Shown here in pieces: positions 1,137 through 24,006 of a DNA stretch of 64,000 nucleotides. The translations under genes were made by a program, and so were the position numbers. Positions within the stretch are counted from its first letter, which is position 1. Each line of letters opens with the position of its first letter. Under the pieces are notes generated by a model. It was not told the DNA's origin and searched no databases. It saw only the letters and a program-made list of their open reading frames with translations. Source of the DNA: Ignavibacteriales bacterium (GTDB taxonomy: Bacteria > Bacteroidota > Ignavibacteria > UBA10030); NCBI GenBank assembly GCA_026390575.1, contig JAPLFR010000001.1, positions 62,001-126,000 on the forward strand, read 5' to 3'.

Positions 1137-2678
1137 ATGAAAATTTTTTCTAAAGTAAACGAAAGTGGAGGATCAATGACCACGTATCCGAATAGTCTCC
1201 TCAAACGCTTTATCGATAATATTCACAATCCCATTCGCTGGCGCAACTCCGGCCTTCGAATGTTGGGGAAACTCATTGGAGTTGCCGCCGTGTTACTTCT
1301 CATGTGGGAACTCACTCCGGCTGTTGCAAGAGCAGGTGATGCACCTCTTCCGCAAATCGCGGTCATCAATGCAATCAATACAGTATGGGTGCTGGTCGCA
1401 GCATTTTTGGTTTTCTGTATGCAGGTCGGTTTTGAAATGCTGGAAGCCGGATTTGCCCGTTCCCGTGAAGCGGTGAACATTCTGGTGGAAGGTATTGCCG
1501 ATACTTCTATTTGCGGTGTTCTTTTTTGGGCATGGGGTTTTGCGTTTATGTTCGAACCGGGAACTCCCTGGATCGGCACAACCGGATTTTTCTTACAAGG
1601 GTTACCGGAAACATATGGATCAACGGGTGTACCAGTATTAGCGTTCTGGGTATTTCAATTCGCTTTTGCAGATACCTGCTCCACGATTACATCAGGTGCC
1701 ATGGTAGGACGTACGGGATTCATCGGAGATCTGCTCTATAGTGTCGGCGTGACCGGTTTTATCTACCCAATTATTGGCCACTGGGCATGGGGACCGGATG
1801 GTTGGTTAGCAGTGATGCAGCCTTTTGCGTTCCATGATTTTGCCGGATCAACTGTTGTCCATACAATCGGTGGTGCTATATCTCTCGTTGGAGCTTTGGT
1901 TCTTGGACCTCGTCTCGGCAGAGTATTTAAGCGTGACGGAGGCGGACCAATGCCGCCCCATGACATCATTTTAGGTGCACTCGGCGGGTTGATTCTCTGG
2001 TTTGGCTGGTATGGTTTTAATCCGGGAAGCACATTGTCTGCCCTGGATATTGTCGGCATTGGCAGAGTATCATTTAATACAACGTTAGCTGCATGTTCGG
2101 CTGGTTTGACAGCGATGTTTTATTCTTTTATTCGCACAAAAAAACATTGGGATTTAGGATTGACAGTGAATGGTTTTCTGGCAGGCCTCGTTGCCATTAC
2201 CTGTCCATGCTATTGGGTGGATCCTTTTGGAGCTTTCTGGATAGGCGTCGGAGGAGGGTTAATCGCCGTGTGGGGAATGGACTTGCTGGAGTATTTGCGA
2301 ATTGACGATCCGATTGGTGCTGTACCCGTGCATATGTTGGGCGGCATATGGGGCACACTTTCATTAGGCCTTTTCGCGACAGGAGCCTTCGGTGCGCCAA
2401 CCCCTACCGGAGTCGATACCAGTTCAGTCGTTACAGGCTTGTTCTATCATGGCGGTTTTAGCCAATTGATTGCTCAGGCGATTGGCAGTGCTTCCGTTGT
2501 AGCAGCAACGATAGCTGTCACCTTTGTGTTGATGTATGCTGTAAAACTCACCGGTACTCTTCGTGTATCGGAAGAAGGTGAGATGGAAGGTCTTGATTTG
2601 CACGAACATGGCGTCACCGCTTATCCTGAATTTGTCATTTCCCGGATACGCAGGATTTCAAAACAAGAGCAAGAATAG
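1137..2678 (+). CDS. amtB: Ammonium transporter AmtB
   Basis: A 513-aa integral membrane protein of the Amt/MEP/Rh family that carries ammonium across the inner membrane. The family signature DFAGSTVVHTIGG contains the first pore histidine (His242) and PVHMLGGIWG the second (His399). The N-terminus has an extra hydrophobic segment ending around ARAG that resembles a signal peptide, common in longer Amt proteins. Two starts are possible. ATG 1137 has AAGGTG upstream; ATG 1176 has a perfect GGAGG (1167-1171) only four bases away and would remove 13 residues. Expression with glnK is expected, and a hairpin follows the stop. Confidence 0.96.
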   Translation: MKIFSKVNESGGSMTTYPNSLLKRFIDNIHNPIRWRNSGLRMLGKLIGVAAVLLLMWELTPAVARAGDAPLPQIAVINAINTVWVLVAAFLVFCMQVGFEMLEAGFARSREAVNILVEGIADTSICGVLFWAWGFAFMFEPGTPWIGTTGFFLQGLPETYGSTGVPVLAFWVFQFAFADTCSTITSGAMVGRTGFIGDLLYSVGVTGFIYPIIGHWAWGPDGWLAVMQPFAFHDFAGSTVVHTIGGAISLVGALVLGPRLGRVFKRDGGGPMPPHDIILGALGGLILWFGWYGFNPGSTLSALDIVGIGRVSFNTTLAACSAGLTAMFYSFIRTKKHWDLGLTVNGFLAGLVAITCPCYWVDPFGAFWIGVGGGLIAVWGMDLLEYLRIDDPIGAVPVHMLGGIWGTLSLGLFATGAFGAPTPTGVDTSSVVTGLFYHGGFSQLIAQAIGSASVVAATIAVTFVLMYAVKLTGTLRVSEEGEMEGLDLHEHGVTAYPEFVISRIRRISKQEQE

Positions 2679-17378: not shown

Positions 17379-17386
17379 AAATATTC
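17379..17386. repeat. 8-bp target-site repeat AAATATTC, copy 1
   Basis: AAATATTC immediately precedes the left inverted repeat (GGTAGTGTCCTAATT) of the first element. The same 8-mer lies at 20719-20726 and 23666-23673. Eight to ten bases is the usual target duplication of IS1-family elements. Confidence 0.85.
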
Positions 17387-17611
17387 GGTAGTGTCCTAAT
17401 TCAATTTCAGTATTATTTGTATTGTTTTCTGTCATAACATTTCACTGCCTTTTAAATTCTGGAATATCTTAATTTCAAGGGAATATTGAAGGGAAATAAT
17501 ATTCAAGTTACCCAAGAATGGTTGTTGAATCAACTCTATTAAGATATTTATTTTCATCCGCTTCTTGATTCAATCTCTGCAACCGCATAGCTTTATAGTG
17601 TCAGATTAATG

Positions 17612-17983
17612 TATTTTGTTCTTTTAAATAGCCAGTGAGGGATAAAAGCTCCGCCGTCTTTCATTTCCCCTTTTAGGTTTTACTTATCCGCCCGCTTTCC
17701 TCTTTCAGTTCGGTTTTATAATCGACTTGAACACGGGAAAGCGAGAGCCGATTCAGTATAAACCCAAAAGAAAGGAGGTGATATACATGGCGATTGCTAC
17801 TAACGCAGCGCAACCAAAGCCAGAAAGCGGATTCGTTTTCTGTAAATACGTTGTGCGCAACGGGAAAACAATCTATCCTAAAAAGGCGAAAGTCTTTCGG
17901 ATACCATTGAGTAGCTTCAAAAAGCGTAAAAGCTGATTGAAGTGACCCGTTCCCTCACTGGAAATTATTTTCTCAAAGAACAA
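17612..17983. repeat. Imperfect inverted repeat flanking the 49-aa ORF
   Basis: GTATTTTGTTCTTT...CCAGTGAGGGA (17612-17642) is repeated in inverse as TCCCTCACTGG...AAAGAACAAAAATAC (17951-17983). The pair encloses the 49-aa gene and its strong ribosome-binding site, suggesting a nested mini-element or a long snap-back structure inside element 1. Confidence 0.55.
17787..17936 (+). CDS. 49-aa basic protein of unknown function (element 1 cargo)
   Basis: Starts MAIATNAAQPKPESGFVF and ends PLSSFKKRKS; the C-terminal half is strongly basic (KKAKVFRIPLSSFKKRKS). The ATG is preceded by AAAGGAGGTGAT, an essentially perfect anti-16S match and the strongest ribosome-binding site in the window, which argues for real translation. 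A longer version starting at 17727 has no such site. A small nucleic-acid-binding role is possible, but no family is recognised. It lies between the arms of a 30-bp-class inverted repeat. Confidence 0.6.
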   Translation: MAIATNAAQPKPESGFVFCKYVVRNGKTIYPKKAKVFRIPLSSFKKRKS

Positions 17984-18001
17984 AAATACTTTATTTTGTA
18001 C

Positions 18002-18030
18002 TTGACAACTAAATAATTATTTCGCATATT
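18002..18030 (+). promoter_or_regulatory. Sigma-70 promoter of element 1, conserved in element 2
   Basis: TTGACA (18002-18007), a 17-bp spacer and CATATT (18025-18030) lie 27 bp before the coiled-coil gene start. The upstream block, with AAAGAACAAAAA and ACTTTATTTTGTACTTGACA, is also present in inverse at the matching place in element 2 (22914-22945), so the promoter is conserved between elements whose flanking cargo differs. Confidence 0.75.
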
Positions 18031-18056
18031 CATTTAGATAATATTTAGGAGCATTT

Positions 18057-18539
18057 ATGTCAAAGCAACCTACGAGAAAACAGATAACCAACGCAACCCT
18101 TGAAGCTTTAAAACCAACGCCACGACAAATCGAGGTTGCAATCCAGTCACTAATAAACCGAATAGAACCCGCCGCCAATCAAATAAAGAAACTGGAAGAA
18201 GATCTTGCAGACAGTATGAAAGCCTTAGAATCACTGATTGAAGCCTATCAATTGTTGACCGCCAAAATGCCGCCGAATTTACCCAAATCGTACAAAGAAA
18301 CTTTTCTGCATCTTACTCCCTCTACAAAAATTGGCGATGCTATGCAGTTAATATTATTCGGCATGAACGAACCACTTTCTAAAAATGAAATCATTGAAAA
18401 ATTACGGCAATACAATATACGGTTGAGTATGAAACATCCTCGCGTTGTTCTTAATACGGCATTAAAAAATGACAAACAAAACCGATTTAAGGTTAGCGAA
18501 GATGGAATGGTGTCTTTGAGGAAAGAAAATGAAAAGTAG
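18057..18539 (+). CDS. Coiled-coil plus winged-helix protein of IS1-type element (element 1)
   Basis: 160 aa. Residues about 20-80 are a heptad-rich amphipathic helix (NRIEPAANQIKKLEEDLADS). Residues about 95-158 look like a small winged-helix domain (NEPLSKNEIIEKLRQYNIRL, HPRVVLNTALKND, RFKVSEDGMVSLR). The same architecture and C-terminal signature occur in the 134-aa protein of element 2. AGGAG precedes the ATG. Its constant position, from a shared promoter and before the structured RNA and transposase, suggests a dimeric DNA-binding accessory or regulator of transposition, analogous in role to InsA of IS1. That role is an inference. Confidence 0.7.
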   Translation: MSKQPTRKQITNATLEALKPTPRQIEVAIQSLINRIEPAANQIKKLEEDLADSMKALESLIEAYQLLTAKMPPNLPKSYKETFLHLTPSTKIGDAMQLILFGMNEPLSKNEIIEKLRQYNIRLSMKHPRVVLNTALKNDKQNRFKVSEDGMVSLRKENEK

Positions 18540-18681
18540 GCATGCTCGGAATCTTGTACGAAATCTAAGTTATCAGCTAAAGTCCCGTACTGCTTTTTGG
18601 TGTACGAAGACGGCAAAGCTGGAAATGCTGAGTGATAACCTGACCGGAAGGACTCAGCAGATTTCAGAGCATGCTTTTTTT
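18540..18681 (+). ncRNA. Conserved 135-nt structured RNA segment (element 1)
   Basis: An outer stem GCATGCTC (18540-18547)/GAGCATGC (18667-18674) closes further nested pairs: GAAATCT (18560-18566)/AGATTTC (18659-18665) and GTTATC (18569-18574)/GATAAC (18634-18639). These enclose an inner arm (GTC..GTAC/GTAC..GAC) and a small CTGA/TCAG arm. A run of seven T follows the outer stem, as in a terminator. Element 2 has the same 135-nt unit at equal length, and its one change in the GTTATC arm (GTTGTC) keeps pairing as G-U. It follows directly after the coiled-coil gene stop. The class is not recognised. Confidence 0.6.
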
Positions 18682-18695
18682 GATTCTTAATAAAC

Positions 18696-18800
18696 AACGA
18701 GCTTGCAAGTGTTTCAGCACTCACAAGCTCCGATAATCCAAGCCCGCGTGAACGGACATTGAACCACACTCTAATTTCGTTCATTGCGCGGTAAAAATCA
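18696..18800 (+). promoter_or_regulatory. Structured leader before transposase 1
   Basis: Two stems precede the transposase start: GAGCTTG..AGTG (18700-18712) with CACT..CAAGCTC, and CCGCG-TGAACG with CGTTCA-TTG-CGCGG. Element 2 keeps both arms despite base changes (GTAAGTG/CACTTAC; CCCGAATGAACG/CGTTCATTGCGGG). Such leaders could limit transposase translation from read-through transcripts. Confidence 0.5.
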
Positions 18801-18824
18801 ACCCTAAACTTTAGGAGATTCGCA

Positions 18825-19664
18825 ATGAACACCTTATCACTCTCTAAAAAAGCCCTGATTTTGTCAAGCTTAGTTGAAGGGCTTTCCATTCGCAGTATTG
18901 AACGCTTAACAAATACCCACAGAGACACGATCATGCGCTTGCTTGTTGAAGCCGGAACAAGAGCAAACGATATTCTCGATAGCCAATTAGTAAACCTCGA
19001 AAGTAAATATATCGAAATTGACGAGATATGGACTTTCGTCGGGAAGAAACAAAGACACGTTTTACCGCGTGAAAAAGATAATACCGAATTAGGCGACCAG
19101 TACGTATTTATAGCGTTAGACGCGGAAACCAAACTTATTCCATTGTTCACGGTCGGTAAAAGAACCGGAAAAACCGCATATTCTTTTATTTCTGATTTAA
19201 GAGGACGCATTAAAACCCGTTTTCAACTTTCTTCTGATTCGTTTGGTGCATATTATGAAGCCGTCCATCGTGTATTCGGCTCTGATATTGATTATGGGCA
19301 AATTCATAAAAGATATCGTGAACCAAGCACAAGCGAAAAACGTTACTCTCCTCCATGTATAACAAGCGTAACATTGAAGTCCCTAATTGGCGAACCTATT
19401 AGGGAACACATTTCCACAAGTTACATTGAACGCCAAAACTTGACCATGAGAATGCAAATGCGTAGATTTACCAGACTCACAAACGGCTTTTCCAAGAAAC
19501 TTGATAACCTGAAAGCCAATCTTGCCCTGTATTTCTTTTACTATAACTTTGTTCGTATTCATCAATCTTTACGGGTTACTCCTGCAATGCAAGCAAACGT
19601 CACAAATCATATTTGGAACTTTGAAGAACTATTAACTAACCAACAACTAAAACAAGCCGCATAA
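18825..19664 (+). CDS. IS1-family DDE transposase (element 1)
   Basis: 279 aa. The N-terminal helix-turn-helix (SLSKKALILSSLVEGLSIRS, then THRDTIMRLLVEAG) is followed by the DDE core: first Asp in EIDEIWTFVGKKQRH, second in FIALDAETKL, Glu in SYIERQNLTMRMQMRRFTR. The FSKK...FYYNFVRIHQSL tail is typical of IS1/InsB-like proteins in this lineage. It is encoded in one frame, with no insA/insB frameshift. AGGAG lies seven bases upstream of the ATG. It is the same length as, and differs at only a few residues from, the transposase of element 2, indicating recent common origin. Confidence 0.9.
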   Translation: MNTLSLSKKALILSSLVEGLSIRSIERLTNTHRDTIMRLLVEAGTRANDILDSQLVNLESKYIEIDEIWTFVGKKQRHVLPREKDNTELGDQYVFIALDAETKLIPLFTVGKRTGKTAYSFISDLRGRIKTRFQLSSDSFGAYYEAVHRVFGSDIDYGQIHKRYREPSTSEKRYSPPCITSVTLKSLIGEPIREHISTSYIERQNLTMRMQMRRFTRLTNGFSKKLDNLKANLALYFFYYNFVRIHQSLRVTPAMQANVTNHIWNFEELLTNQQLKQAA

Positions 19665-19678
19665 TAAAAGGAGACCTT

Positions 19679-19858
19679 ATGCCCGAACCCCTTAACAAAC
19701 ATGAACAAATTGCGCTCCAAATTACAACGGCACTTATTTCCGGTTGGTACCCCAATGGCTTAACCGAAACAGACCAAGGCAAACAAGCCGGCGAAATCAA
19801 TAAAATCATAGAACTTTATTCGACCGTTCTTAAAAGAATAAAAGATCGCAAAATTTAA
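19679..19858 (+). CDS. 59-aa protein of unknown function (element 1 cargo)
   Basis: Begins MPEPLNKHEQIALQITTALI 14 bp after the transposase stop, with AAAGGAG eight bases upstream, so it is probably cotranscribed with the transposase. It looks like a small soluble helical protein (TETDQGKQAGEINKIIELYS). No family is recognised. Its 3' end overlaps by four bases the end of the 65-aa gene on the other strand. Confidence 0.55.
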   Translation: MPEPLNKHEQIALQITTALISGWYPNGLTETDQGKQAGEINKIIELYSTVLKRIKDRKI

Positions 19859-20052
19859 TTATACCTATAAGATTTTAAAAATTTTGTTGTTGTTTGACTT
19901 GCAACGTTCGCAACTTCTTGGACGCGTCTTGGAAGCTTCTGAAGATTTCCGTATCCATATTCTTGCTCGATAGAAAGAAGAGCAATGAAAACGCGCCAAA
20001 ACGTTTTAGTTTCCAAATTGATTTCGGCTATCGATTTATCTTTGTTTTCCAT
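19855..20052 (-). CDS. 65-aa protein of unknown function (element 1 cargo)
   Basis: Minus-strand frame starting MENKDKSIAEINLETKTFWR, with GGTGACTT just before the ATG. The helical middle (VFIALLSIEQEYGYGNLQKL) and basic end suggest a folded small protein, but no family is recognised. It is convergent with and overlaps the 59-aa gene by four bases. Coding status rests on the ribosome-binding site and composition only. Confidence 0.4.
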   Translation of the reverse strand: MENKDKSIAEINLETKTFWRVFIALLSIEQEYGYGNLQKLPRRVQEVANVASQTTTKFLKSYRYN

Positions 20053-20090
20053 AAGTCACCATTTTGAGCAAAACGAATAAGGAAACTATT

Positions 20091-20222
20091 ATGAATGCCT
20101 ATATGAACGATGAAAATTTTAGAGCGCATGTCATTTCGTCTCTAAAGACTATTATTCATTTGCTATCTATAATCTTGATCGTTATTGTTTCATACGTGGT
20201 ACACATATCTCTAAAACCTTAA
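20091..20222 (+). CDS. 43-aa single-pass membrane protein (element 1 cargo)
   Basis: MNAYMNDENFRAHVISSLKT is followed by a single hydrophobic helix (IIHLLSIILIVIVSYVVHIS) and a short LKP end. AAGGAAA lies eight bases before the ATG. It ends 11 bp before the next gene, so the two are probably an operon. Small one-helix proteins of this kind occur as toxins, holin-like or stress peptides, and nothing here discriminates. Confidence 0.5.
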   Translation: MNAYMNDENFRAHVISSLKTIIHLLSIILIVIVSYVVHISLKP

Positions 20223-20233
20223 AAGGACAGACT

Positions 20234-20506
20234 ATGAAAGAATATCAATACTGCGAACAAACACTGGATAATCGTAAATTTGCGTTTGTCAAAATTAATG
20301 CAGACATACTTAACAACGATGCCAAACAAAAAGAAATATTTAATGTTTTCAGAAATCATTTTACTGATTTTACGATTGCTTTAATATTGCCAACAGACAA
20401 AAACAAAACATATCAAATGTTGGCAGAACCAGAAACCACAATATCGGGTAAACTCCAATTACATATATTTGATATTGTCTTTAGCTGGAAGTCTATCAAA
20501 CTTTAA
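20234..20506 (+). CDS. 90-aa protein of unknown function (element 1 cargo)
   Basis: Starts MKEYQYCEQTLDNRKFAFVK with AAAAGGA upstream, 11 bp after the 43-aa membrane protein gene. The mixed alpha/beta composition (KINADILNNDAKQKEIFNVF, FTIALILPTDKN, KLQLHIFDIVF) looks like a compact soluble domain. No family is recognised. The 3' end overlaps the end of a small minus-strand frame. Confidence 0.5.
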   Translation: MKEYQYCEQTLDNRKFAFVKINADILNNDAKQKEIFNVFRNHFTDFTIALILPTDKNKTYQMLAEPETTISGKLQLHIFDIVFSWKSIKL

Positions 20507-20685
20507 TATGTCAAAAACAATTTCAGAGCTTCCTTTATTTCTTGCACACTTTGCTCGGTTGGCTTGCCATAAGTCCTAATTTGATAAACGCCATAATATC
20601 CAAGGCGCACATTCCTTTCGATATTATTTTTAAATCTTTGCTTAGCTACCTCTAAGTCTTCATCATAAAATATTTCTATGGTCAC
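20503..20685 (-). CDS. 60-aa protein of unknown function (element 1 cargo)
   Basis: Minus-strand frame with a GTG start (TIEIFYDEDLEVAKQRFKNN, ending EALKLFLTY). It has protein-like helical composition but no convincing ribosome-binding site, and it starts only 19 bp inside the right end of element 1. Kept at low confidence. Confidence 0.35.
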   Translation of the reverse strand: MTIEIFYDEDLEVAKQRFKNNIERNVRLGYYGVYQIRTYGKPTEQSVQEIKEALKLFLTY

Positions 20686-20718
20686 TTTGCTTTTTGGGCG
20701 TGGAATTAGGACACTACC

Positions 20719-20726
20719 AAATATTC
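20719..20726. repeat. 8-bp target-site repeat AAATATTC, copy 2 (shared)
   Basis: This single 8-mer separates the right end of element 1 (ends 20718) from the left end of element 2 (starts 20727). With the two inverted repeats it forms a nearly perfect palindrome of about 38 bp. Confidence 0.85.
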
Positions 20727-20754
20727 GGTAGTGTCCTAATTAGCCATGAAAGTC

Positions 20755-21312
20755 TTATACATTAACCCACCAATTAATTGCATCTTTGGGAATGGTGGCA
20801 TCAACAACTTTATGAGTGATTCCCGATTTGATGGAGTCGGCGGCTGTGATAAATCTCTCATTACCGGAGAGACAGGCGGCAACGTCGATGGGTTCTTTCG
20901 CTCCTTGAGTGCGTTCTTTGAAAATGTCAATGTATCTCTCCATGTCGTTGTTGAGCGCGGATGCATGTTCTCTGAGTCTGGCATGATCTACGCTTGTGGC
21001 GGCTGTAAAGTCCCACTGCAAAGAATGAAGGAGGAATCTACTATGAGAACAGGACAAGCGATTGGGCGCAGCCAAGAAAATTATCATTGCGATAGATTCC
21101 ACGCTTCCTAAATTATGAATAGTAACGGGAACGGGCAGGGATTTAATAAAATTATAAAGAGTGAATCCATACAATGTGCTTCCACCGCCACTGGATAGAT
21201 GAATATGAATTTCAGGTGCTTTTTGTCTTACTGCATCTAAACAAACGTTTTTTAATTGGTTGCAACTTTCATAGGAAACTGATGTGTAAAAATGAATCAC
21301 ATGAATTGGCAT
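20755..21312 (-). CDS. ClpP/crotonase-fold serine protease-like protein (element 2 cargo)
   Basis: 185 aa. ClpP-type features in order: the oxyanion region HIHLSSGGGSTLYG (Gly42-44), the nucleophile segment LGSVESIAMIIFLAAP (Ser73), then RFLLHSLQW (His96). At the third catalytic position, where ClpP has Asp in a D-x-F-x-S-A-E-E-A context, the sequence NERFITAADSIKSGI has Glu152. The gene starts 10 bp after the transposase stop with GGGGAA upstream, so the two are cotranscribed. It is a plausible cytoplasmic protease but much shorter in context than housekeeping ClpP, and no ATPase partner is nearby. Confidence 0.8.
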   Translation of the reverse strand: MPIHVIHFYTSVSYESCNQLKNVCLDAVRQKAPEIHIHLSSGGGSTLYGFTLYNFIKSLPVPVTIHNLGSVESIAMIIFLAAPNRLSCSHSRFLLHSLQWDFTAATSVDHARLREHASALNNDMERYIDIFKERTQGAKEPIDVAACLSGNERFITAADSIKSGITHKVVDATIPKDAINWWVNV

Positions 21313-21322
21313 GATTATTCCC

Positions 21323-22162
21323 CTATGCGGCTTGTTTTAATTGTCGGTTAGTTAATAGTTCTTCAAAGTTCCAAATATGATTCGTTACATTTGCTTGCAT
21401 TGCAGGTGTAACCCGTAAGGATTGATGAACGCGAACAAAGTTATAGTAAAAGAAATACAAGGCAAGATTGGCTTTCAGGTTATCGAATTTCTTGGAAAAG
21501 CCGTTTGTGAGTCGAGTAAATCTACGCATTTGCATTCTCATGGTCAAGTTTTGGCGTTCAATGTAACTTGTGGAAATGTGTTCTCTAATGGGTTCACCGA
21601 TTAAGGATTTCAATGTTACGCTTGCTATACATGGAGGAGAGTAGCGTTTTTCGCTTGTGCTTGGTTCACGATAACTTTTATGAATTTGTCCATAATCAAT
21701 ATCAGAGCCGAATACACGATGGACGGCTTCATAGTATGCACCAAACGAATCAGAAGAAAGTTGAAAGCGGGTTTTAATGCGTCCCCTTAAATCAGAAATA
21801 AACGAATATGCGGTTTTTCCAGTTCTTTTCCCAACTATGAACAATGGAACAAGTTTGGTTTCCGCGTCTAACGCTATAAATACGTATTGGTCGCCTAATT
21901 CGGTATTATCTTTTTCACGCGGTAAAACGTGTCTTTGTTTCTTTCCGACGTACGTCCATATCTCGTCAATTTCGATGAACTTACTTTCGAGGTTTACTAA
22001 TTGGCTGTCGAGAATATCGCTTGCCCTTGTTCCGGCTTCAACAAGCAAGCGCATGATCGTGTCTCTGTGTGTATTTGTTAAGCGTTCAATACTACGAATG
22101 GAAAGCCCTTCAACTAAACTTGATAGAATTAAGGCTTTTTTAGAGAGTGGTAAAGTGTTCAT
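21323..22162 (-). CDS. IS1-family DDE transposase (element 2)
   Basis: 279 aa, the same length as the transposase of element 1 and differing at only a handful of residues (for example LPLSKK for LSLSKK, KFIEIDEIWTYVG for KYIEIDEIWTFVG). The DDE residues are all present (EIDEIW, FIALDAETKL, SYIERQN). ATG 22162 is chosen by homology with element 1 and an AGGAG upstream. The ClpP-like gene follows after 10 bp. Both copies appear intact, so either could mobilise both elements. Confidence 0.9.
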   Translation of the reverse strand: MNTLPLSKKALILSSLVEGLSIRSIERLTNTHRDTIMRLLVEAGTRASDILDSQLVNLESKFIEIDEIWTYVGKKQRHVLPREKDNTELGDQYVFIALDAETKLVPLFIVGKRTGKTAYSFISDLRGRIKTRFQLSSDSFGAYYEAVHRVFGSDIDYGQIHKSYREPSTSEKRYSPPCIASVTLKSLIGEPIREHISTSYIERQNLTMRMQMRRFTRLTNGFSKKFDNLKANLALYFFYYNFVRVHQSLRVTPAMQANVTNHIWNFEELLTNRQLKQAA

Positions 22163-22185
22163 TGCGAAGCTCCTAAAGTTTGGGG

Positions 22186-22296
22186 TTGACTTTATCCCCG
22201 CAATGAACGAAATTAGAGTGTGGTTCAATGTCCGTTCATTCGGGCTTGGATTATCGGAGCTTGTAAGTGTTCAAGCACTTACAGGCTCATTGTTTA
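22186..22296 (-). promoter_or_regulatory. Structured leader before transposase 2
   Basis: Minus-strand counterpart of the leader in element 1. GAGCCTGTAAGTG pairs with CACTTACAAGCTC (one mismatch), and CCCGAATGAACG pairs with CGTTCATTGCGGG (one bulge). Several bases differ from element 1 in ways that keep or improve pairing. Confidence 0.5.
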
Positions 22297-22305
22297 TTAA
22301 GAATC

Positions 22306-22447
22306 AAAAAAAGCATGCTCTGAAATCTGCTGAGTCCTTCCGATCAGGTTATCTCTCAGCATTTCCAGCTTTGCCGTCTTCGTACACCCAAAAGCAGTAC
22401 GGGACTTTAGCTGACAACTTAGATTTCGTACAAGATTTAGAGCATGC
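22306..22447 (-). ncRNA. Conserved 135-nt structured RNA segment (element 2)
   Basis: Minus-strand copy of the RNA segment of element 1: outer stem GCATGCTC (22447-22440)/GAGCATGC (22320-22313) followed by seven T. The distance between outer arms is again exactly 135 nt. Differences from element 1 are scattered and compatible with the same arms (GTTGTC pairs with GATAAC through a G-U). It starts about 10 nt after the stop of the coiled-coil gene. Confidence 0.6.
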
Positions 22448-22456
22448 CTATTTATT

Positions 22457-22861
22457 TCACTTTGTTTCACGCAAAGAAATCCTTCCGTCTTCTAACCGTG
22501 TAAAGCGTTTCTTCTTATCCTTTTTTACCAGATTCGCTAAAACATTTCTTGGATTATTTAAACTAAGCTTTACTCTCTTTTCTCTAAGAAGTTCGATAGC
22601 CCGATTGATTTCCAGCGTATTATTTTCTTTGAGAATGATTTCAAGGAAATCGCCTAAACTTGAATTGAGCGATGAGGGAAGCAAGATAGACGGCTCTTCT
22701 CCAAAAAAAGTTTTATATGCATCTTTTAAAGAATTAATCTTTTCCTCAACAGCGTGGAGGTTCAACTCTATTTCAGAATGTCTGTCTAATAGAGTTGAAT
22801 GTTCGTTTACCAATTTTTGGAGTTCATCAAGAATTGGTTGTTTTGGTATATGCAGTTTCAT
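22457..22861 (-). CDS. Coiled-coil plus winged-helix protein of IS1-type element (element 2)
   Basis: 134 aa from ATG 22861, which has GGAG seven bases upstream; an in-frame ATG at 22879 would leave almost no leader after the promoter. The N-terminal 60 residues are coiled-coil (LQKLVNEHSTLLDRHSEIEL). The C-terminal part matches the element 1 protein in its winged-helix signature (KLSLNNPRNVLANLVKKD, then RFTRLEDGRISLRE). Overall sequence has diverged much more than the transposase, suggesting target- or partner-specific change. Probably an accessory DNA-binding protein of the element. Confidence 0.7.
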   Translation of the reverse strand: MKLHIPKQPILDELQKLVNEHSTLLDRHSEIELNLHAVEEKINSLKDAYKTFFGEEPSILLPSSLNSSLGDFLEIILKENNTLEINRAIELLREKRVKLSLNNPRNVLANLVKKDKKKRFTRLEDGRISLRETK

Positions 22862-22869
22862 TGTCTTCT

Positions 22870-22919
22870 CCGTAATCATATTACGGATATAAATTACGTA
22901 ATGTATATTACAGTGTCAA
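22870..22919 (-). promoter_or_regulatory. Sigma-70 promoter with GTAAT-type operator repeats (element 2)
   Basis: Minus strand: TTGACA (22919-22914), 17-bp spacer, TAATTT (22896-22891), 30 bp before the coiled-coil gene. The spacer and the bases after the -10 contain the palindrome ATTACGTAAT and repeated GTAATAT/CCGTAAT words, candidates for autoregulation by the winged-helix protein. Confidence 0.6.
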
Positions 22920-22981
22920 GTACAAAATAAAGTTTTTTTGTTCTTTGAAAAGTGTTGCATTGTGCTTTTGGATAAACAAGG

Positions 22982-23011
22982 AGCATGGCGAGTTTTTAGG
23001 CTCGCCATGCT
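22982..23011 (-). terminator. Perfect 11-bp hairpin in element 2
   Basis: AGCATGGCGAG (22982-22992) and CTCGCCATGCT (23001-23011) pair perfectly around an 8-nt loop. On the minus strand it lies directly after the stop of a 30-codon frame and upstream of the coiled-coil promoter, so it could insulate that promoter from read-through. The following tract is only moderately T-rich. Confidence 0.55.
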
Positions 23012-23012
23012 A

Positions 23013-23105
23013 TTAACGAAGTAGAAGTAACAATGTGCTGATGATAACAACTAAAATAGCAGCAACATCAATTTTGACCTCTACTTTGATTTCCGTCTTT
23101 CTCAT
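23013..23105 (-). CDS. Possible 30-aa single-helix membrane peptide (element 2 cargo)
   Basis: MRKTEIKVEVKIDVAAIL followed by VVIISTLLLLLR gives a charged head and one hydrophobic helix. No Shine-Dalgarno site is visible. It is included because it ends against the strong hairpin at 22982-23011 and mirrors the 43-aa one-helix protein of element 1. Confidence 0.3.
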   Translation of the reverse strand: MRKTEIKVEVKIDVAAILVVIISTLLLLLR

Positions 23106-24006
23106 TGTAGTATCCATTGAAAAAGGCAGGAGCGCTCCATACCGTTAATGGAATGGCAGGATTATCGTGGCGTTGCTACCACGTCAAGACCATTGAACGT
23201 TACAATGCCCTTGAGTTCGACGAGGCTTCCGCTCAGCATTGTGGTTGTACACAATTGTAGCGGGCTTCTCGCCATTCAGCCGATTGAAGCATCGACAGTG
23301 AGACCTCTTCATGGTCTCATACCGCAAGAACATGCTCTTACGAGGTTATGTATGCGGGTCTCTTTGATGGCAAAAGAGATACCACCAAACTTTTATTTAA
23401 ATGAACGCAATGCAATATTTTTCAAAGATTATTTAAAAGAACAAAATGAGGGATTTATTGTTTTACAACTGGCTGTAATATAACAAGTTAATAGCATCTT
23501 AATCAAGTGAAATATGAGGTGTTGAAAATTTAATGTAAAAAGGTAAAAAACGCACTTGACAAGATGAACATAATTCATATATCAGGCTTTTAAGTGAAAA
23601 CGGAAAAATAGTAATGATTGAAAACGAATTAAAAACGAAGTCCTATTTCAAATTAGGACAGCACCAAATATTCAAACTTTAACTTCGAAAACTCCATATA
23701 TCTTATAATAAAATGTTCATGTTTCCAATAACATTTTTTCATCTCTCTCAATATTCAACACAATAGGAGGTGTGAAATAATTATTTATTTTAGATCGATT
23801 GCTCTTGAATAGAAAATTAATAATAAATCTAATCGCTTATTTTTTCGCAATGTTAAAAGTCAATTATGTCGGAATTCACATCGAAAAATTGATTGAAGTA
23901 TTCCGATCAGTATTTTACTTATTCTTTCCTGTTTCTATTTTCGCAAATTATAGTTTGATTACTACAAAGATCATGCAGCGTTGAATAACTTTTAAAGGGA
24001 TGTACC
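23106..24006. other. Non-coding stretch: right part of element 2 and AT-rich leader of the M13 peptidase gene
   Basis: 23106-23665 is the outer part of element 2. A plus-strand frame at 23148-23483 is open but has no start signal, and GAGACC/GGTCTC forms a small hairpin at 23300-23318. 23674-24006 is very AT-rich and shows no convincing gene; it must hold the promoter of the peptidase gene. Confidence 0.4.
23666..23673. repeat. 8-bp target-site repeat AAATATTC, copy 3
   Basis: Directly follows the right end of element 2 (AATTAGGACAGCACC). It is identical to the copies at 17379 and 20719, so both elements are flanked by the same 8-mer. Confidence 0.85.

Follow-up and report, generated by a model that had tools for sequence, protein, structure and literature searches.

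An apparently very rare structured RNA of no known family in IS1-like elements with an accessory gene

Two neighbouring insertion elements in a 64,000-nt stretch of an Ignavibacteriales genome (the window, hereafter) carry the same intergenic unit between a gene for a coiled-coil protein and the transposase gene. Is this unit a genuine structured RNA, as a preliminary description of the locus proposed, and if so, what could it do for a transposon? The features of the locus are collected in Table 1. Both elements have GGTAGTGTCCTAATT ends, the far one of element 2 with two mismatches. The 8-bp AAATATTC occurs three times in the window (17379-17386, 20719-20726 and 23666-23673), the middle occurrence being common to both elements. 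Since both are flanked by it, a single 8-bp target was entered by both, and the duplication between them is shared. Target duplications of the IS1 family are 8-9 bp long, and the elements have both the terminal inverted repeats (GGTAGTGTCCTAATT) and the target duplication (AAATATTC, 8 bp) of that family. The element 1 transposase, which is the one we scanned, exceeds the cutoff for the IS1 DDE domain; for the NCBIfam IS1 equivalog NF033558 it reaches 65.5 bits, below the cutoff of 100. Judged by profiles and ends, transposase and element are IS1-like and not a classical IS1 member. In relatives, the target duplication is GGCACCCC at L077 and GAATTTCA at L078, it is imperfect or short at L039 (7 of 8 positions) and L080 (7 bp), and at L042 none was seen.

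Besides the ends and 55 nts around the coil-gene promoter, the two elements have one long match to each other, at 18534-19663, which is 93% identical and covers RNA, leader and transposase. The coil genes are only 32% identical, and RNA, leader and transposase therefore move as one set. Element 2 also has a passenger gene for a ClpP-like protease 3’ of its transposase (20755-21312, minus strand; PF00574, 51.6 bits). About 280 nts in the left part of element 2 (23120-23400, minus strand) fold far better than shuffles (z -4.8, with z -6.9 for one 140-nt part). As kin of the RNA this stretch was rejected, scoring 5.9 bits with the RNA model, and no similar DNA was found in 113 other loci, with the transposase as positive control.

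Table 1. Features of the two elements and of the structured RNA. Positions are those of the window unless a locus is named.
Feature	Position	Strand	Evidence and remarks
IS1-like element 1 (3332 bp)	17387..20718	+	terminal repeats GGTAGTGTCCTAATT; 8-bp AAATATTC at each flank
Promoter-like TTGACA-17-CATATT before element 1 coil gene	18002..18030	+	consensus match only; 2 in region, 2.1 expected in shuffles
Coiled-coil/winged-helix accessory protein, element 1, 160 aa	18057..18539	+	ORF, AF2, Foldseek
Structured RNA, copy 1	18539..18676	+	covariance model match 96.9 bits (in model by construction); covariation
P1, 5’ arm	18539..18547	+	pairs with 18667-18675
P2, 5’ arm	18549..18554	+	pairs with 18659-18664; partly formed in L109, L039 b and c
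Small hairpin, loop GAAATCTAA (consensus GAARYCUAA)	18557..18571	+	2 of 3 pairs form in window copies
P3	18573..18622	+	33-nt extension 18578-18610 specific to window copies
P4, internal loop GAUAA/AAGG and small apical stem	18627..18658	+	covariance model, covariation
T7 tract after P1, terminator-like in window copies	18675..18681	+	sequence
Transposase leader switch	18743..18831	+	A about 18743-18754, A’ (anti-start) about 18778-18791, B (SD/start) about 18820-18831; limits by eye
IS1-like DDE transposase, element 1, 279 aa	18825..19664	+	PF03400 31.8 bits, cutoff 24.1
IS1-like element 2 (2939 bp)	20727..23665	-	opposite orientation to element 1; same AAATATTC flanks
Transposase of element 2	21323..22162	-	96% identical to element 1 transposase
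Structured RNA, copy 2	22311..22448	-	covariance model match 96.5 bits (in model by construction)
Coil gene of element 2, 140 aa	22457..22879	-	32% identical to element 1 coil gene
Long antisense frame via transposase start, leader, RNA and coil gene	18248-19210 (-), 21777-22892 (+); L039 1717-2562 (+); L007 646-1482 (+)		listing of 30 elements

The two window copies are each 138 nts long and differ by six substitutions and no indels. The equal spacing of the outer arms that had been noticed in them holds, the closing arms GGCATGCTC and GAGCATGCT being equally far apart in each copy. The compatible changes said to preserve the internal arms amount to one of the six differences (column 11, G-U to A-U); another breaks a pair (column 95, U-A to A.A), and the remaining four fall outside the conserved pairs. 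With one compatible, one pair-breaking and four unpaired-column differences, the two window copies alone therefore do not demonstrate a conserved fold. Relative to dinucleotide shuffles, the exact 138-nt stretches fold with z = -4.4 (copy 1) and -2.7 (copy 2), and a coarse scan in 140-nt windows every 60 nts, which cuts the closing stem, reports nothing over the RNA unit beyond z -2.5.

Evidence for the fold comes from homologues. Upstream sequences of transposase relatives, for which there is a match in 16 of 61 genomes, contain two diverged homologues, in genomes G015 (locus L006/L039, GenBank contig VGWB01000067, Ignavibacteria) and G014 (locus L007/L109, contig JAKEEG010000032, Ignavibacteriae). 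A covariance model built from four copies finds two further copies in G015 which were absent from the model, at 93.9 and 67.4 bits (E 1.5e-19 and 3.2e-13). There are thus six copies, two in the window, one in G014 and three in G015 (copies a, b and c), with pairwise identities from 51 to 96%; copy b and the L109 copy are 83% identical. In the alignment of these six sequences only, which is fitted to the structure model and so favours that structure, 91.5% of the cells are paired and 19 of the 31 pairs have changed on both sides, as many as in none of 500 shuffles. The covariation score is 0.589 versus 0.228 in shuffles (0/500) and 0.05-0.10 for a slid structure, a control in which 27-35% of cells are paired and 1-4 pairs doubly changed. 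The prediction that RNAalifold makes on its own from the same alignment has P1, the inner part of P2, P3, P4 and, at GAARYCUAA, a hairpin of 3 bp, and 16 of the 27 predicted pairs are doubly changed; without one window copy and with the small hairpin added, the count is 19 of 34. The homologues thus carry compensatory changes beyond chance, the very point on which the conserved, cloverleaf-capable RNA of the preliminary description could have failed, and they bear it out. On this covariation we regard the structured RNA as genuine.

The overall fold is a cloverleaf-like junction of the P1-P2 arm, the GAARYCUAA hairpin, P3, and P4 with GAU.A opposite AAGG. P1 has 9 bp, and its 5’ side has GGCA in all six copies. 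P2 is well formed in the window copies and in copy a, and poor in L109 and in copies b and c. The P3 cap is CGCAA in four of the six copies, and the RNA domain, which is about 108 nts, reaches 138 nts in the window because P3 is longer there. The joint between P1 and P2, GAA opposite AGUA in L109 and copy b, presumably recalls the bulged-G (loop E) motif. A pseudoknot GUUAUC/GAUAAC noticed in a window copy was dropped, as by eye it is not kept in the relatives. Over the six copies, the mean pairwise identity is 74% in unpaired model columns versus 58% in paired ones, as one expects where a folded RNA has a functional core.

That the RNA belongs to no known class, as had been supposed, agrees with Rfam. 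The window has zero matches at gathering level, and permissive searches of Rfam 15 with a window copy and the L039 and L109 copies return matches below gathering only. The best E-value on an RNA copy is that of scr4677 (21.6 bits, gathering 41, E 0.002), in a match that spans copy a and the adjoining hairpin in L039 and does not recur for the other copies. Two of the identities suggested for the unit lack support: a tRNA mimic, as ARAGORN finds no tRNA or tmRNA gene in the window, and a guide-like RNA, for which there is nothing apart from its being carried by a mobile element. The size, the multi-stem junction with conserved loops, the mobile-element setting and the tandem copies described below would suit a self-cleaving ribozyme of a class not yet described; we consider this very improbable, as the permissive Rfam matches include no small self-cleaving ribozyme family and we recognise no cleavage-site signature. 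Two group II intron fragment models do match on the strand of the RNA, with E-values no better than chance (RF01998, E 9.7; RF04334, E 3.8). The same searches place a below-threshold match to the SymR antitoxin RNA in L109 (1022-1094, plus strand; 26 bits, gathering 61, E 0.005), antisense to the transposase leader.

A conserved coding frame over the same stretch would have spoken against an RNA, and codon tests in five pairs and six frames (30 tests) show no consistent codon pattern, a few of them being low. The reading that the unit belongs to a protein-coding frame of the other strand draws on an antisense frame that stays open through the leader, the RNA and much of the coil gene, for 505 to >600 nts, in exactly the four RNA-bearing elements, versus at most 271 nts in the other 26 listed elements (among them L008, with almost no upstream sequence). 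The chance of such openness is 0.006, 0.14 and 0.016 in three lineages. The alignment gaps sum to multiples of three, and in two of the five comparisons of this frame, which is open in all copies, there are fewer amino-acid changes than expected (P 0.006 and 0.007). Against it, P is 0.11, 0.17 and 0.59 in the remaining three comparisons, and similarly low values (P 0.009 and 0.013, among the 30 tests) occur in sense frames which have stops or are unshared. Differences are spread evenly over the three codon positions in three pairs (28/23/24, 26/27/31 and 26/28/31), the frame through the whole intergenic stretch of the window copies has 21 changes with 13 amino-acid changes versus 14.5 expected, and it is open in the detached copies b and c as well. 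On the codon tests, protein coding is unsupported overall on either strand, with the open antisense frame in the four carriers left over, and of all the readings we weigh this one is the least credible.

The RNA is found in 3 of 98 genomes of the order, 1 of 395 of the phylum (its own genome) and 3 of 391 of the class; the draws overlap, and the genomes are always the same three. The order was searched with model R1, and the phylum, the class and 38 chosen genomes with model R2. Order, phylum and class searches had stricter filters, and at most 33, 10 and 10 candidates, respectively, were scored per genome among the matches listed, so weak relatives of the RNA may be missed. A looser model search of the 38 chosen genomes adds two chance-level matches only (E 0.74 and 1.9). 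A pattern scan of genome contigs recovers the same two relatives (G015 and G014); the pattern missed both window copies and copy c of L039, and relatives of those types would therefore escape it. Pattern scans of viral sequences gave one match, inside a 535-aa phage frame, which was rejected, as the RNA model gave it no support, and no RNA accompanies the viral transposase relatives in 16 loci. Applied to 51 sources, the RNA model is positive for L039 and L109, with a chance match in L052 (14.2 bits, E 2.5). By BLAST, copy a of L039 has no match in plasmids and the window copy none in phages. In what was searched, the RNA is apparently very rare. In a transposase tree of 41 members, four have the RNA (L008, one of the 41, has almost no upstream sequence). 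These carriers form two well-supported pairs inside an unresolved part of the tree, and they may be one clade with a single origin (support 66/52). A short GGCA...UGCC hairpin found at the RNA’s place in L099 and L103 was not counted as a homologue (model score 13.3 bits, E 0.26 for L099). Such hairpins, with the loop UGACRCUAAUCAAC, stand right after a second-type coil gene in L099 (2528-2563, minus strand) and L010 (about 1250-1290, plus strand).

The neighbour of the RNA is the coil gene. From six sequences, AlphaFold (AF2) predicts for the coil protein a long helix and, after it, a domain resembling a winged helix (mean pLDDT 81.6, pTM 0.48). Foldseek places winged helices at the top, among them the Rok DNA-binding domain and RNA polymerase delta; the best match has E 0.06, and none falls below 0.001. 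The HARE-HTH domain PF05066 (cutoff 25.9) stays below cutoff in L010 (16.9 bits) and L118 (15.2 bits); the window proteins, like those of L039, L007 and L005, are not among its listed matches. The promoter-like sequence before the element 1 gene overlaps a 55-nt stretch (17970-18024) which is 82% conserved between the elements. A coil-gene profile finds seven good members in 391 genomes, four of them next to the RNA; the other three (G004, G055 and G070) are of a second type and have no RNA. Two marginal matches (E 8e-4) are left out of the seven. With types assigned from the alignment, and for G070 by reading, the RNA follows four of four coil genes of the first type and zero of three of the second. 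As the RNA carriers may be one clade, this association is not independent.

In three elements the RNA lies directly 3’ of the coil gene, and in G015 a further hairpin intervenes. The order in G015 is an 84-aa ORF, copy c, copy b, the coil gene, another hairpin, copy a, leader and transposase. The preliminary description had the unit always between coil gene and transposase; this is true for four of the six copies, and fails for the tandem copies b and c, which are upstream of the coil gene and of its promoter-like sequence (read by eye in G015). Since they precede it, action solely in cis, on a transposase mRNA that begins there, cannot explain everything. For the same reason the suggestion of an attenuator suits the window copies, with their terminator-like end, and does not suit copies b and c. 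The extra copies in G015 make a stand-alone RNA acting in trans, away from its own mRNA, nearly as likely as the reading we prefer. Such an RNA would be a ribonucleoprotein partner or an sRNA serving, for instance, transposition or copy-number control. It is favoured by the G015 element, which has three copies, a tandem pair among them outside the coil-transposase operon, and also by a fold kept where the terminator is lost and by the RNA-like conservation of the junction. Against this, the promoter scan of the window shows no promoter of its own for the RNA, and by eye no guide-like variable segment occurs in the six copies; we hold this reading to be doubtful. The more specific proposal of a new class of element-encoded noncoding RNA that acts in trans as a ribonucleoprotein with the coiled-coil/winged-helix protein is, in our judgement, unlikely.

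Tandem copies within one mobile element would also fit a single-stranded DNA structure or a recombination site of the element. The fold is possible in DNA, and the strand asymmetry expected of RNA is weak, with 11 G-U versus 7 A-C cells, a ratio that also counts against the reading we prefer. The conserved junction sequences, in our judgement, resemble RNA motifs, the unit is away from the element ends, and in an unsystematic look we noticed no duplication or excision footprint at it, which leaves a DNA site only a slim chance.

The T7 tract that the preliminary description placed after the closing stem is present in both window copies, and it is not a conserved part of the unit, as no such tail follows copies a, b and c of L039. 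A simple terminator scan, whose loop limit is 8, does not report it. Were the unit a plain intercistronic terminator or insulator, its interior would be unimportant, and what matters would be the closing stem with the T7 tract behind it, as in both window copies, or with the T-rich stretch of L109. The three L039 copies are without a T tract, yet their interior loops and stems are conserved; a stem with a T tract, the mark of an intrinsic terminator, is thus found in only some of the homologues. We think this alternative rather improbable.

Between the RNA and the transposase lies the leader, which has its mirror in element 2 and is found far more widely than the structured RNA. One of its segments, A’, complements the transposase start (B) and in many cases also an upstream look-alike (A). 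In 29 elements of the main clade, the complementarity of a leader to its own start is 25.2, versus 18.9 (sd 0.68) when leaders are permuted (0/5000), a test for which the leader range and the rows (29, the distant 11-row clade being left out) were chosen after a first mixed run and whose permutation ignores the relatedness of the elements. Rows above their own swap mean number 27 of 29, L084 and L040 being the two that are not, and the cases that carry information are elements whose starts have changed, L086, L088, L099 and L103 among them. The first run, with 40 rows and a range that cut off the anti-start in several elements, was mixed, with L109 and L039, for instance, below their swap means. 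The test covers the coordination of A’ with B; A is only listed. The leader is probably a translational switch that hides or frees the transposase start; its segments could in principle be a set of protein sites instead. By eye, tiny look-alike ORFs (MSKVLKL..., MKIYWGRL...GFINCARDI, ...IPLRL) precede the leader or the transposase in L078, L080, L084, L089, L091, L093, L096, L098, L099, L100 and L103, and are possible leader peptides.

Our first choice, held tentatively and with less than even confidence, is that the unit folds independently as an RNA within the accessory-gene/transposase transcript, is probably bound by a protein, and helps to hold transposase expression low. In the window, the RNA would most likely be transcribed from the promoter before the coil gene, within the coil-gene/transposase mRNA. 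The conserved junction nucleotides, in the GAARYCUAA hairpin and the GAU.A/AAGG loop, would be the binding site of a protein, in the simplest case the coiled-coil/winged-helix protein encoded next door, and this complex would keep transposase expression low. The closing stem with T7 could in addition end transcription in the window, and the downstream leader could mask the start codon of a read-through message, so that the RNA would be one part of a layered brake on transposition. In favour of a brake we count the covariation (19/31 pairs doubly changed), the greater conservation of unpaired columns (74% versus 58%), the presence of the RNA after 4/4 first-type and 0/3 second-type coil genes, the set of RNA, leader and transposase kept together at 93% while the coil genes differ, the T7 tail of both window copies and the start-masking leader. 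Against it, copies b and c of L039, two of the six, stand before the coil gene and the promoter-like sequence and allow no cis attenuation of a message started there, and the terminator-like tail is missing after L039 a, b and c. Most family members, moreover, manage without the RNA (carriers are 4/41 transposases in the tree), and the coil-RNA association is not independent if the carriers are one clade.

What the locus offers is a covariation-backed RNA fold of no known class that goes with an accessory protein and a DDE transposase, next to a probable start-codon switch which coordinated change has kept across many elements and which makes translational control of the transposase in this family directly testable. 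Should the RNA work in trans within a ribonucleoprotein, transposition of an IS1-like DDE transposon would be regulated by an RNA-protein complex that the transposon itself encodes, in up to three copies. RNA-guided systems have come from insertion sequences, which have also supplied textbook cases of RNA regulation. The present RNA is rare, structured and of no known family, and its setting is of a known kind; in the open PMC literature, which is part of the whole, we found no structured RNA of such kind in IS1-like elements. The bridge or seek RNA of IS110/IS1111 is a structured noncoding RNA encoded by an insertion sequence. Unlike it, the RNA here has an IS1-like DDE transposase as its partner and no DEDD transposase, which keeps it apart from the bridge and seek RNAs, and by eye it has no variable guide loops. 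Elements of the IS10/IS50 type have transposase leaders that mask the start, and the leader beside our RNA could likewise mask the transposase start; here, unlike there, anti-start and start co-vary across elements, and the structured RNA upstream is an additional module. Among the closest comparisons is ISPpu9, whose transposase is reported to be controlled by the sRNAs Asr9 and Ssr9 and a structured 5’ UTR (PMC8450116). The element is a different one and its RNAs presumably are too, and the RNA here follows an accessory gene and, as far as seen, is not antisense. Like the elements described here, ISPpu9 is an insertion sequence with element-encoded RNAs, and the structure of its mRNA is reported to be a likely mask for the transposase ribosome-binding site (PMC8450116).
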